Positions 13,630-24,135 of a stretch of 64,000 nt of DNA are shown here, one piece after another. The DNA comes from Microbacterium phyllosphaerae (lineage in GTDB: Bacteria > Actinomycetota > Actinomycetes > Actinomycetales > Microbacteriaceae), in NCBI RefSeq assembly GCF_017876435.1, contig NZ_JAGIOA010000001.1, positions 3,534,001-3,598,000 of the forward strand. Reading direction: 5' to 3'. Position 1 is the stretch's first letter, and the number at the start of each line of letters is the position of its first letter. A model generated the notes under the pieces. It saw nothing but the letters and a program-made list of their open reading frames with translations, ran no database searches and had not been told where the DNA came from. The position numbers and the translations under genes are program-made.

Positions 13630-14799
13630 TCAGCGTTCGAGCACCACCGCCAGTCCCTGCCCCACACCGATGCAGAGCGCCGCGACCGCGACTCCGCCCC
13701 CTCGGCGCTTCAGTTCATGCGCCGCGTGTCCGATGACACGACCGCCGGAGGCGCCGAGCGGGTGCCCCATGGCGAGCGCGCCCCCATGGACGTTCAGCTT
13801 CTCAGGATCGAGGTCGGGCCATCCCTTCAGACATGCGAGGGACTGAGATGCGAACGCCTCGTTCAGCTCGACCAGATCGACGTCGGCCCAGGTGCGCCCT
13901 GCCCGCGCCAGCGCCTTGTTCGCCGCTTCGATCGGCGCGATCGGGAACTCGTCCGGATCCACGCCATGCCATCCCCTGCCGGCGATCCGCGCGAGCGGGT
14001 CACCCGCGATCGCGCCTTCCGATCCGATGAGCACCGCCGATGCACCGTCGTTGATCGACGACGAGTTGCCCGCGGTGACCGATCCGTCCGCCGCGAAGAG
14101 CGGCCGGAGGCCGGCGAGCTTCGCGACCGTCGAGCCGTCGCGGATTCCCTCGTCTCGCGTCATCGCGTGTCCGTCGACCTGAACGATCTCCGCGTCGAAC
14201 AGCCCCTCGCGCCACGCCGCGGCAGCACTCTCGTGGCTGCGCACGGTGAAGGCATCCTGCATCTCGCGTGTGATCCCCCATTCGCGGGCGGTCTTCTCGG
14301 CGGACTCCCCGTTCGAGATCGTCCAGTGCTCGGGAAGTCGCGGGTTGACCATCCGCCATCCGATCGCGGTGTTCCACAGGGTCTGGTTGCCGACCGCAGC
14401 GTACGGCTTCGGCGACTTCTCGACGACCCACGGCGCACGGCTCATGGACTCCACCCCGCCGGCGAGGATGATGTCCGCGTCTCCCGCCTCGATCGCCCGT
14501 GATCCCTGGAATACCGCTTCGAGGGACGAGGCGCACAGTCGATTCACCGTGGTTCCCGTCACCGATGTCGGGAACCCCGCGAGCAGCGCGGCGAAGCGCG
14601 CCACGTTGCGGTTGTCCTCACCCGCCTGGTTGGCGTCGCCGAAGATCACGTCGTCGATACGAGAGGGATCGATCCCCGCACGCTCGACGATCGCCCTCAT
14701 GACGACGGCGGCGAGGTCATCGGGGCGGATGTCGGACAGCGCCCCGGCGGCACGCCCGAAAGGGGTCCGCACGGCGTCGTACACGAAACTGGCAGTCAT
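13630..14799 (-). CDS. Acetyl-CoA acyltransferase (thiolase), beta-ketoadipyl-CoA-thiolase-like
   Basis: The 389-residue thiolase cleaves a 3-oxoacyl-CoA with free CoA. The acyl-accepting cysteine is in NRLCASSLEAV (C89), and the second-domain residues are in NEAFA, GHPLGASGG (H346) and CIGVGQG (C376). The length and 'GDANQAGEDNRNVARFAALLAG' type sequence place it near PcaF/PaaJ-like enzymes, which release succinyl-CoA plus acetyl-CoA from 3-oxoadipyl-CoA. This subgroup call is from general resemblance. It is the last gene of a five-gene leftward run and overlaps the hydratase stop by ATGA; its 'aaggaga' lies inside the hydratase gene. In the proposed pathway it does the final cleavage. Confidence 0.88.
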   Translation of the reverse strand: MTASFVYDAVRTPFGRAAGALSDIRPDDLAAVVMRAIVERAGIDPSRIDDVIFGDANQAGEDNRNVARFAALLAGFPTSVTGTTVNRLCASSLEAVFQGSRAIEAGDADIILAGGVESMSRAPWVVEKSPKPYAAVGNQTLWNTAIGWRMVNPRLPEHWTISNGESAEKTAREWGITREMQDAFTVRSHESAAAAWREGLFDAEIVQVDGHAMTRDEGIRDGSTVAKLAGLRPLFAADGSVTAGNSSSINDGASAVLIGSEGAIAGDPLARIAGRGWHGVDPDEFPIAPIEAANKALARAGRTWADVDLVELNEAFASQSLACLKGWPDLDPEKLNVHGGALAMGHPLGASGGRVIGHAAHELKRRGGGVAVAALCIGVGQGLAVVLER

Positions 14800-15557
14800 G
14801 ATCTCTCCTTGGTGGCGGATCTGTCGAGGAAGGCGGACATGCGCGCCCTCTTCGCATCCGACTCGAAGAGGATCGCCTGGGCGAGGTCGTCGACGAGCGG
14901 ATGGGCACTCTCCGGTGCATCGAGAACGCGTTTCGTCAGCTGAACGGCGAGGGGATCCTGAGTGGCGATGCGATCGGCGATGCCGTGTGCGGCGTCGATC
15001 AGCTCATCGGGCGCGTGCACGGAGGCGACGAGATGGGCATCCAGTGCCTCCTGAGCCGTGAGCCGGCGTCCGGCGAGCAGGATCTGCCGCGCCAGAGGAG
15101 CACCGACGAGCTTCGGAAGACGCCACGTGCCGCCGGCGGCCGCGATGATCCCGAGCCCCGCCTCCGGGTTCCCGAACACCGCTCGATCCGAGGCGATGCG
15201 GATGTCCGCCGCGTAAGCGAGTTCCGCTCCACCCCCGATCGCGTACCCGTCGACCGCCGCGATAACGGGCATGGGCAGCTCGGCGATCCGGCTGAAGATG
15301 CGCGCGTTGTAGCCGCGCAGAGCCTCATCGCGTCCGCGGCCCAGCAGGACGCCGATGTCGGCGCCGCTCGCGAACACGCCCCTCTCGGGGGTGCTCGCGC
15401 CCGAGAGGATGAGCGTCCTCGGGTGACGTTCGAGGTCTGCGCACACCTCGTGCAGCTCCGCCACCATCACCTCGTCGATGGCGTTCCGCACGGCAGGGCG
15501 GTCGAGTTCGATGTGGATGCGATCCGCCGACTCTGCGACGAGCCTCAGCGCACGCAT
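14796..15557 (-). CDS. Enoyl-CoA hydratase
   Basis: The 253-residue crotonase-fold protein hydrates 2-enoyl-CoA to 3-hydroxyacyl-CoA. Both catalytic glutamates of true hydratases are present: E112 in GYAIGGGAELA and E132 in FGNPEAGLG. The oxyanion-hole segment FASGADIGVL is also intact. ATG at 15557 starts the canonical MRALRLVAE sequence; a longer frame reads into the neighbouring SDR end and is rejected. A 37-bp gap separates it from the SDR stop, and the end overlaps the thiolase start. In context it would act on a 2,3-didehydro-dicarboxylyl-CoA formed by the upstream acyl-CoA dehydrogenase. Confidence 0.88.
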   Translation of the reverse strand: MRALRLVAESADRIHIELDRPAVRNAIDEVMVAELHEVCADLERHPRTLILSGASTPERGVFASGADIGVLLGRGRDEALRGYNARIFSRIAELPMPVIAAVDGYAIGGGAELAYAADIRIASDRAVFGNPEAGLGIIAAAGGTWRLPKLVGAPLARQILLAGRRLTAQEALDAHLVASVHAPDELIDAAHGIADRIATQDPLAVQLTKRVLDAPESAHPLVDDLAQAILFESDAKRARMSAFLDRSATKERS

Positions 15558-15594
15558 GCTCGCCGACTTCCGCCGAGGCTCCGTCGCCGGCGCA

Positions 15595-23199: not shown

Positions 23200-23225
23200 C
23201 AATCTCGGGTCGATCAGGTATTGGA
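23198..23225 (+). promoter_or_regulatory. Composite GTATTGGA element before the 3-hydroxyacyl-CoA dehydrogenase (site 3)
   Basis: ATCAATC (23198-23204), 13 bases, then GTATTGGA (23218-23225), ending 55 nt before the start codon. Sequence and spacing are the same as in site 1. Confidence 0.5.
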
Positions 23226-23280
23226 CTTGCATAGGTGCGGATGTGAGTCTGGCCCGAGCGACCCGATCGAAGGAGATGTC

Positions 23281-24135
23281 ATGAGCGGTGCACCGGAACG
23301 CGTCGGAGTGATCGGCGGTGGGCGCATGGGCGCGGGGATCGCTCAGGTCTTCGCACAGGCGGGCTCCATGGTGACGGTGGTCGAGCGGGACGCGGCCTCG
23401 ATGGAATCCGCTCGTGACCGCCTGGCCGACGGCGTCACGAAGGCCGCCGCGCGCATCGAGACCGTCGATGCGACCGAGACGCTCTCCCGCCTGCACGTCA
23501 CGGCGGCATACGAGGACCTCTCGTCAGCCGACCTCGTGGTGGAGGCGGTCCCCGAGATTCTCGACCTCAAGATCGGGGCCCTGACGCGAGCCGAACAGGT
23601 CCTCTCCCCCTCGGCCTGGATCACGACGAACACGTCATCGCTTCCGGTCTCGCAGATCGCCGAGCATCTGTCCCGCCCCGAGCGGTTCTGCGGCCTGCAC
23701 TTCTTCAACCCGGTGCCGCCGTCGGCTCTCGTCGAGGTCGTGCTCGCGCCGCTGACTGCTGCGGAGATGCGCTCAGCCGCCGGTGAGTGGATCACTGCGT
23801 TGGCCAAGACCGCGATCTTCGTGAACGACACTCCCGGTTTCGCGAGCTCGCGTCTGGGGAACGCGCTCGCACTCGAGGCCATGCGCATGGTCGAGGAGGG
23901 CGTCGCGAGCGCCGCCGACATCGATACGGCGATGGAGCTCGGGTATCGGCACGCGACGGGCCCGCTGCGCACGTCCGACCTGGTGGGGCTCGACGTGAGG
24001 CTCGACATCTGCGAGTTCCTGCACGCGACCCTCGGCGAGCGCTTCGCGCCGCCGCAGATCCTCAGGGACAAGGTCGCGGCCGGTGACCTCGGCCGTAAGA
24101 CCGGCCGAGGATTCTTCGACTACCCGGTGTCCTGA
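23281..24135 (+). CDS. 3-hydroxyacyl-CoA dehydrogenase (3-hydroxybutyryl-CoA dehydrogenase type)
   Basis: The 284-residue enzyme oxidises L-3-hydroxyacyl-CoA to 3-oxoacyl-CoA with NAD. It has the GxGxxG-type loop GVIGGGRMGAG (9-19), the catalytic histidine H140 in GLHFFNPV, and a C-terminal domain ending in GRKTGRGFFDYP, all standard for the short bacterial PaaH/Hbd form. ATG at 23281 has 'aaggagatgtc' directly upstream; a 20-residue in-frame extension is rejected. It is divergent from the aldehyde dehydrogenase and supplies the one beta-oxidation step missing from the leftward five-gene operon. Confidence 0.9.
   Translation: MSGAPERVGVIGGGRMGAGIAQVFAQAGSMVTVVERDAASMESARDRLADGVTKAAARIETVDATETLSRLHVTAAYEDLSSADLVVEAVPEILDLKIGALTRAEQVLSPSAWITTNTSSLPVSQIAEHLSRPERFCGLHFFNPVPPSALVEVVLAPLTAAEMRSAAGEWITALAKTAIFVNDTPGFASSRLGNALALEAMRMVEEGVASAADIDTAMELGYRHATGPLRTSDLVGLDVRLDICEFLHATLGERFAPPQILRDKVAAGDLGRKTGRGFFDYPVS

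Follow-up and report, generated by a model that had tools for sequence, protein, structure and literature searches.

A cyclohexanone monooxygenase gene cluster without a lactonase in Microbacterium phyllosphaerae, a possible catabolic module for cyclic 1,2-diols

We analyzed a 64,000-nucleotide stretch of the Microbacterium phyllosphaerae genome (contig NZ_JAGIOA010000001.1, positions 3,534,001 to 3,598,000; the whole stretch is referred to as the window), in which positions 13630..24135 carry eight enzyme genes and one LysR regulator gene (Table 1). The genome is a single contig of 3.73 Mb. An original prediction, made from the letters alone, had described this locus as a near-complete pathway from a cyclic ketone to central metabolism that misses a lactonase and a hydroxyacid dehydrogenase. 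Neither enzyme was matched in the locus, but "missing" is probably the wrong frame, because nine of ten related loci carry a lactonase, the window has a short-chain dehydrogenase/reductase (SDR) of the acetoin reductase type, and the genome contains no match to the lactonase at E ≤ 1e-5. On balance, we lean toward reading the locus as a self-sufficient catabolic module whose substrate is a cyclic vicinal diol or 2-hydroxyketone, with cyclohexane-1,2-diol or 2-hydroxycyclohexanone as the most likely compounds. The gene set would then probably lack nothing.

In the proposed pathway, the SDR would oxidize the diol to the 2-hydroxyketone, and a Baeyer-Villiger monooxygenase (BVMO) of the cyclohexanone monooxygenase (CHMO) group would place an oxygen between the carbonyl and the carbinol carbon to give 7-hydroxyoxepan-2-one, a hemiacetal ester. 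We infer that this compound would open to 6-oxohexanoate without an enzyme, and an aldehyde dehydrogenase (ALDH) would convert the latter to adipate. A lactonase and a hydroxyacid dehydrogenase would be unneeded because the hemiacetal ester would open directly to an aldehyde acid, for which the ALDH comes next. A class III CoA-transferase would move CoA from succinyl-CoA onto adipate, and an acyl-CoA dehydrogenase (ACAD), a hydratase and a 3-hydroxyacyl-CoA dehydrogenase (HCDH) would take adipyl-CoA to 3-oxoadipyl-CoA. The thiolase would split 3-oxoadipyl-CoA into acetyl-CoA and succinyl-CoA, which could prime the next CoA-transferase round. Each of the three promoter regions has one or two TCCAATAC elements, at which the LysR protein would probably act. 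The gene families, the motifs, the gene content of relatives and the shared element are observations; the substrates of all these steps, the spontaneous ring opening and the LysR site are predictions.

All eight enzyme genes of the original prediction, as well as its LysR gene, were located as open frames running from ATG to TGA, and their motifs were checked directly. The CoA-transferase, ACAD, SDR, hydratase and thiolase genes form a leftward run with successive gaps of -4, 41, 37 and -4 bases. The LysR and BVMO genes are read rightward, and the leftward ALDH gene is divergent from the HCDH gene. Both type I motifs claimed for the BVMO were seen (FRGRTVHTAEWPD and GGTWYWNKYPGAMSD); they agree with the type I fingerprints FxGxxxHxxxW and GGxWxxxx[FY]P[GM]xxxD, and the Rossmann GxGxxG/A motifs are also present. 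The best solved match was the CHMO of Thermocrispum municipale (5m0z, 817.9 bits). The window BVMO shares 65% identity with the T. municipale gene in locus L015, and its nearest named relative is in a Microbacterium metagenome-assembled genome (MAG). The T. municipale study gives T60, L145, L428, P430, F434, T435 and L437 as ligand contacts (PMC5213842). All of these, as well as D59 and R329, were identical in the aligned window BVMO. Because the ligand-contact residues are the same, the substrate class of the BVMO is likely a cyclohexanone-sized cyclic ketone.

Ten tabulated loci encode a BVMO 65-74% identical to that of the window. In nine of them (the eight loci L008-L015, and L029), a lactonase candidate lies directly upstream of the BVMO gene; its assignment to Abhydrolase_3 rests on two members scanned, and the nearest solved relatives are esterases. 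A Zn-alcohol dehydrogenase (Zn-ADH, query C9) is present in seven of the nine, the other two being the short contigs L008 and L010. The tenth locus, from Isoptericola (L007, BVMO 74%), is without the cluster genes and fits neither class. The cyclohexanol route consists of lactonase, ADH2 and ALDH steps with adipate as an intermediate (PMC7542165); by sequence family, the upstream Abhydrolase_3 protein and the Zn-ADH would fit its lactonase and 6-hydroxyhexanoate dehydrogenase. Queries with the relatives' lactonase and hydroxyacid dehydrogenase gave no match in the window locus or in its sister locus L006. Searched at E ≤ 1e-5, the complete genome of the window gave no match to the lactonase query; among five other genomes, four were matched at 75-99% and G023 at 29-30% alone. 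The best match to the Zn-ADH query in the window's genome was 37% identical.

With 395.6 bits on NF006394 ((S)-acetoin-forming diacetyl reductase; curated cut-off 381) and 349.7 bits on TIGR02415 (acetoin reductase; curated cut-off 304.35), the window SDR exceeded both thresholds. Its best solved match was acetoin reductase 1geg (313 bits), and residues S144, Q145, N151, Y157 and K161 are present. Enzymes of this type have vicinal diols and hydroxyketones as substrates. The SDRs of loci with a lactonase scored 181-195 bits on TIGR02415 (L009, L103, L105, and L110), the partial L013 SDR scored 150, and for the L104 SDR this model was not among the best 25 families listed. Ten SDRs from lactonase-less loci scored 232-362 bits (window, L006, L020, L023, two in L024, L026, L027, L030, and L032); the cut-off was exceeded by five, namely those of the window, L006 and L032, one in L024 and, by 0.05 bits, that of L027. 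Judged by these scores, the SDRs of the two kinds of loci clearly differ.

We tabulated 39 CHMO loci, comprising 29 of 79 from a genome scan (L006-L033 and L042), nine plasmid regions from 100 matching plasmid records, and the window. Left out were the fragments L038 (76% BVMO, lactonase upstream) and L084 (∼53% over a part), L088 (50%), L085-L087 (duplicates of the window, L006 and L010), and all loci under ∼53%. A locus was labeled lactonase-type when any one of four lactonase queries scored >150 bits. The vicinal-diol-type label was given for a match of >70% to C7, a butanediol-dehydrogenase-like (BDH) query, or for an SDR >70% identical to the window's or >80% identical to that of L027. 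Nineteen loci carried the lactonase only, 15 the vicinal-diol-type dehydrogenase only, none both, and five neither (L007, L017, L018, L107, and L108). The Zn-ADH at ≥40% was found in 14/19 lactonase-type and 0/15 lactonase-less loci (weaker matches of 30-38% occur in L020, L021, and L025), the BDH at ≥70% in 0/19 and 12/15, and the LysR at ≥40% identity in 7/19 and 13/15, respectively. The nearest solved structure to the C7 protein of L027 is (R,R)-butanediol dehydrogenase 6ie0.

The BVMO tree requires at least two changes between the lactonase-type and lactonase-less states, and placing all 15 lactonase-less rows in a single clade was rejected (p-AU 3e-8). Eight lactonase-type rows share a clade of 11 with the window, L006 and L007; the 13 remaining lactonase-less rows make up a second clade apart from it, from Arthrobacter, Paeniglutamicibacter, Actinacidiphila, Antrihabitans and Mycobacteriaceae. 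There the CHMO gene is mostly followed by ALDH and BDH-like genes, with no intervening ALDH in L019 and L025 and no BDH in L024. The latter, a Paeniglutamicibacter locus, has LysR, CoA-transferase and ACAD genes next to that of an SDR sharing 72% identity with the window SDR. The sister locus L006 (Microbacterium MAG, same contig as G023:C193; BVMO 88%) carries the hydratase, SDR, ACAD, CoA-transferase, LysR, BVMO, ALDH and HCDH genes in the same order. A lactonase search of 12 second-clade genomes (E ≤ 1e-30) found homologs of 72-76% in the Arthrobacter genomes G107, G109 and G112, of 30-39% in G113, G115, G116 and G118, and none in five. The idea that second-clade genomes have no lactonase was therefore dropped as wrong for three of the 12. 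In each of these three the homolog is part of a second CHMO cluster, which has separate BVMO, Zn-ADH, ALDH, hydratase, HCDH, thiolase and LysR genes. Two of the second clusters (L132 and L133) also have ACAD and CoA-transferase genes, and the BVMO of L131 was matched in two pieces; in G107, yet another lactonase gene adjoins a further BVMO gene (L134). Because both module types sit as separate clusters in one genome, their coexistence supports different substrates.

The original prediction had stressed that CHMO and dicarboxylate beta-oxidation genes are joined in one self-contained locus. The joining is real, but it is not unique to the window. The same kind of ACAD and CoA-transferase accompanies CHMO in the other Microbacteriaceae Microcella (L012) and Leucobacter (L014) and in Arthrobacter (L023, L132, and L133), in several cases with hydratase, HCDH and thiolase. 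Other ACAD and CoA-transferase subfamilies do so in Thermocrispum, mycobacteria and two Rhodococcus plasmids.

A shared promoter element, also part of the original prediction, does exist. The 8-base TCCAATAC occurs in all three cluster promoter regions and a fifth time at 39295; these five matches compare with an average of 0.12 over 100 shuffled sequences, and no shuffle gave as many. The same four cluster sites are found in L006. Seventeen of 24 sequences scanned contain the element (window and L006 included), with two to five sites each in L009, L012, L013, L014, L132 and L133; it also lies between the CoA-transferase and LysR genes in L012, L014, L132 and L133. It was absent from L007, the cluster-edge stretches L136 and L137, and the second-clade Arthrobacter loci L019, L020, L021 and L025. 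We found no LysR-type T-N11-A palindrome at these elements. TCCAATAC makes a good candidate for the site that the LysR protein binds. The best score of the LysR protein itself was to the acetoin regulator AlsR, below cut-off. The BVMO placement among CHMOs, the shared gene content and this element lend good support to a module around one LysR gene that leads from a cyclic ketone to central metabolism.

The longer consensus VTCCAATACY has 10 matches genome-wide (three for the reversed control), four of them in the cluster. The fifth TCCAATAC site of the window (39295-39302) lies ∼45 bases before a medium-chain dehydrogenase/reductase (MDR) alcohol dehydrogenase frame (39346-40425, + strand) beside a sugar ABC transporter; it may be a regulon member or a chance match. 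Among the other consensus sites, 1229029 has a TetR gene on one side and a GH3-like glycosidase gene on the other, and 609209 and 1502940 are two less clear places. The original prediction had looked to a distant alpha/beta-hydrolase lactonase with the same promoter element; no alpha/beta-hydrolase gene was seen behind the 10 sites when these were inspected by eye, without a family search. A divergent pair of GTCCAATACC sites, also among the 10, was noticed at 501240/501335 of the same genome (L148, 6741 and 6836), between a beta-hydroxyacid-dehydrogenase-like gene on one side and genes for a VOC protein and an MFS transporter on the other (named by eye). It possibly marks another catabolic operon controlled by a similar regulator.

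Ordinary degradation of cyclohexanol or cyclohexanone has to be weighed against the diol reading. Here the SDR would act as cyclohexanol dehydrogenase, with unlinked, perhaps unspecific enzymes taking over the lactone and hydroxyacid steps; we regard this as possible but rather unlikely. The ligand contacts of the window BVMO are those of the cyclohexanone-active T. municipale enzyme, and lactonase-type clusters carry the same downstream genes (ACAD, CoA-transferase, hydratase, and HCDH). Against it, the cluster lactonase is unmatched in the complete genome at E ≤ 1e-5, none of the 10 VTCCAATACY sites was seen by eye to precede an alpha/beta-hydrolase gene, and the window SDR is unlike those of lactonase-type loci (TIGR02415, 350 vs. 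150-195 bits, in the five of six for which this model was listed). A cluster-type lactonase hidden elsewhere in the genome was rejected on the E ≤ 1e-5 search. Unspecific hydrolysis is a different matter: five genome reading frames exceed the cut-off of Abhydrolase_3, the hydrolase family searched (best 72 bits). The 12 MDR alcohol dehydrogenase matches in the genome also speak for this alternative.

Several observations count against a diol or hydroxyketone substrate. One of the five Abhydrolase_3 frames might open a lactone, and in three of the 12 second-clade genomes the close lactonase homolog could serve in trans. Fourteen BVMO pocket positions, five of them of our own choosing, are the same as the window's in 18 of 19 lactonase-type loci; on sequence, the pocket cannot separate cyclohexanone from 2-hydroxycyclohexanone, and we dropped it as evidence for the hydroxyketone. 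(The columns at T. municipale positions 52 and 513 alone roughly split the BVMOs of the two kinds of loci.) Half of the 10 lactonase-less SDRs scored fall under the TIGR02415 cut-off. On the meso-2,3-butanediol dehydrogenase model NF052558 (BudC; cut-off 270), the window SDR scored 188.9 bits and is surpassed by five full-length lactonase-type SDRs at 209-238 bits, all below 270. Family names of SDRs are loose and alone do not settle the substrate. The locus labels were set after the table had been seen, and the rows are related, some of them nearly identical (L008/L010, L009/L013/L029, and L105/L106). Ten loci have <8 kb on at least one side, and the short contigs include L008, L010, L029 and L031. 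The thiolase was not matched in the L006 stretch examined.

The downstream enzymes bear on the ring size. The ALDH scored 511.8 bits on NF006915, below the equivalog cut-off of 730, and both catalytic glutamates claimed for the hydratase are present in its two motifs. The thiolase has motifs NRLCAS, GHPLG and CIGVGQG; calling it PcaF-like was fair in that 3-oxoadipyl-CoA thiolases are its nearest relatives, but its score on TIGR02430 (PcaF) stays below the equivalog cut-off (430.6 vs. 597 bits). The ACAD motif YEGT is present, like the HCDH motif HFFNP. The best family of the CoA-transferase was NF052585 (succinate:glutarate CoA-transferase, SUGCT; 340.7 bits, below the cut-off of 750), and the signature NLLSS is common to it and its best solved match, 9br7. 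The ACAD groups with plant ACX4 and glutaryl-CoA dehydrogenases.

Taken by name, the CoA-transferase and ACAD had favored glutarate and cyclopentanone. A five-membered ring (cyclopentane-1,2-diol or cyclopentanone) would be degraded by the same route to glutarate. A succinate:glutarate CoA-transferase would then activate the glutarate, and an enzyme resembling glutaryl-CoA dehydrogenase would yield crotonyl-CoA, the source of two acetyl-CoA. The ACAD carries Asn-Thr where the human and Thermus glutaryl-CoA dehydrogenases have Arg-Ser, and Asn is also found at this position in L006, L012, L014, L023, L024, L132, L133 and L137. The Arg is Arg94, the residue that binds the glutaryl carboxylate. 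Because this position is Asn, the ACAD argues against glutaryl-CoA, adipyl-CoA is our best guess, and we demoted the five-membered ring to an improbable substrate. The thiolase, nearest to 3-oxoadipyl-CoA thiolases, also counts against that ring. Open-chain acyloins or diols (acetoin or 2,3-butanediol), with the beta-oxidation genes serving another acid, would suit the acetoin-reductase scores of the SDR and the AlsR-like best score of the LysR protein, but they are very improbable substrates, as the CHMO belongs to a cyclic-ketone group and acetoin cleavage to acetaldehyde and acetate would leave five neighboring genes without work.

Table 1. Genes and promoter elements of the CHMO locus (coordinates within the window).
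Feature	Position	Strand	Basis
Thiolase, 3-oxoadipyl-CoA thiolase-like (predicted substrate)	13630..14799	-	TIGR02430/NF006551 best, below cut-offs; catalytic Cys/His/Cys motifs
Enoyl-CoA hydratase	14796..15557	-	PF00378; GGGAE and NPEAGLG; 4-base overlap with thiolase
SDR, acetoin reductase type; predicted cyclic vicinal-diol dehydrogenase	15595..16380	-	Above NF006394 and TIGR02415 cut-offs
ACAD, ACX4/glutaryl-CoA-dehydrogenase group	16422..17621	-	4-base overlap with CoA-transferase
Class III CoA-transferase, nearest SUGCT; predicted succinyl-CoA:adipate CoA-transferase	17618..18847	-	NF052585 best, below cut-off
Promoter element TCCAATAC, CoA-transferase/LysR intergenic	18902..18909	+	
LysR regulator, AlsR-like by best score; likely cluster regulator	18952..19848	+	PF00126 and PF03466
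Promoter element TCCAATAC, LysR/BVMO intergenic	19885..19892	-	
Type I BVMO, CHMO group	19957..21579	+	5m0z best solved match; both fingerprints
ALDH, succinate-semialdehyde-dehydrogenase-like; predicted 6-oxohexanoate dehydrogenase	21718..23097	-	NF006915; GQAC, ELGG
Promoter element TCCAATAC, ALDH/HCDH divergent promoter	23159..23166	+	
Second promoter element TCCAATAC, same ALDH/HCDH divergent promoter	23218..23225	-	
HCDH	23281..24135	+	PF02737 and PF00725; GGGRMGAGI, HFFNP
Isochorismatase-fold protein without catalytic Cys; possible accessory gene	26426..27031	+	Homolog distribution, alignment

A gene beyond the cluster could accompany a module for cyclic 1,2-diols. The isochorismatase-fold protein of Table 1 has Ala in the alignment at the position of the catalytic Cys of cysteine hydrolases. 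Homologs of 66-70% (E ≤ 1e-30) were found in G023 and in five Arthrobacter genomes that carry lactonase-less clusters; three of the five carry a lactonase-type cluster as well. At the same threshold none was found in eight genomes reached through a lactonase-type locus or in the seven other second-clade genomes. At E ≤ 1e-60, a homolog is present in two of 58 genus or order relatives, the window's own genome included. The gene directly follows the BDH-like gene in Arthrobacter L020, L021, L023 and L025, and in G023 it is ∼44 kb from the BVMO gene. A bolder proposal would make the lactonase-less CHMO clusters a distinct cyclic 1,2-diol pathway without a prior genetic description. It would have arisen on two occasions, each time with vicinal-diol dehydrogenases replacing the lactonase and the hydroxyacid dehydrogenase, and the Cys-less protein accompanying the clusters in some Micrococcales would be a dedicated hydroxy-lactone-opening enzyme; we think it quite unlikely that all of this holds.

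Adjoining the cluster (24868-26345, - strand) is a pair of genes for a quinone-oxidoreductase-like MDR and a MarR protein. Homologs lie near second-clade CHMO loci, the MDR at 56-62% in L019, L021, L024 and L028 and the MarR at 37% in L019. Among the loci with neither label, two Rhodococcus plasmids carry a CHMO-group BVMO beside phenazine-type genes (DAHP synthase, isochorismatase, anthranilate synthase, and PhzF in L107; a pyridoxal-phosphate-synthase-like gene in L108). Because of these neighbors, the two BVMOs are perhaps biosynthetic rather than catabolic.

If the diol reading is true, a pathway with two holes becomes complete, with a precise substrate prediction. A simple genomic rule would follow: beside a CHMO gene, a lactonase and Zn-ADH would mark a cyclic-alcohol degrader, and a vicinal-diol dehydrogenase would mark a cyclic-1,2-diol degrader. 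The gene set would allow the diol route to be recognized in genomes and would be a source of lactonase-free CHMO. We found no published gene cluster for cyclohexane-1,2-diol, a weak negative from a search of the open-licence literature that covered few subscription papers. The enzymes and the chemistry are of known kinds; the gene set and the rule separating the two module types appear new.

The chn-type cyclohexanol clusters of Acinetobacter, Rhodococcus HI-31 and T. municipale have in common with the window a CHMO, an SDR, an omega-oxoacid dehydrogenase, and adipate. Unlike them, the window has no lactonase and no 6-hydroxyhexanoate dehydrogenase, its SDR is of the acetoin reductase type, and its dicarboxylate beta-oxidation genes share one promoter element. 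For T. municipale, the study cited above states that three genes upstream of the CHMO gene may serve cyclohexanol degradation (PMC5213842). The Rhodococcus plasmids pYLL2 and DN22 p1 resemble the window in holding CHMO, ALDH, LysR, ACAD, CoA-transferase and thiolase genes in one locus. They differ in that an alpha/beta-hydrolase and an alcohol dehydrogenase are present and MaoC/FabG genes replace the hydratase and HCDH; their ACAD and CoA-transferase share 28-30% identity with those of the window.

The diol route has been known from biochemistry for decades. Davey and Trudgill in 1977 reportedly described how Acinetobacter TD63 converts trans-cyclohexane-1,2-diol to the 2-hydroxyketone, which after CHMO action opens spontaneously to 6-oxohexanoate. 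Diol-grown TD63 had an induced CHMO (PMC10649493). The TD63 route is the same chemistry as predicted for the window, a likeness drawn from the chemistry and not from TD63 sequences. In the limonene-1,2-diol route, the lactone opens to a keto acid. Rhodococcus erythropolis DCL14 uses a limonene-1,2-diol dehydrogenase and then a monooxygenase that turns the hydroxyketone into a lactone (PMC4097962). This order of a diol dehydrogenase followed by a lactone-making monooxygenase is like that predicted for the window, and the differences are the monoterpene substrate and the keto acid formed on opening.

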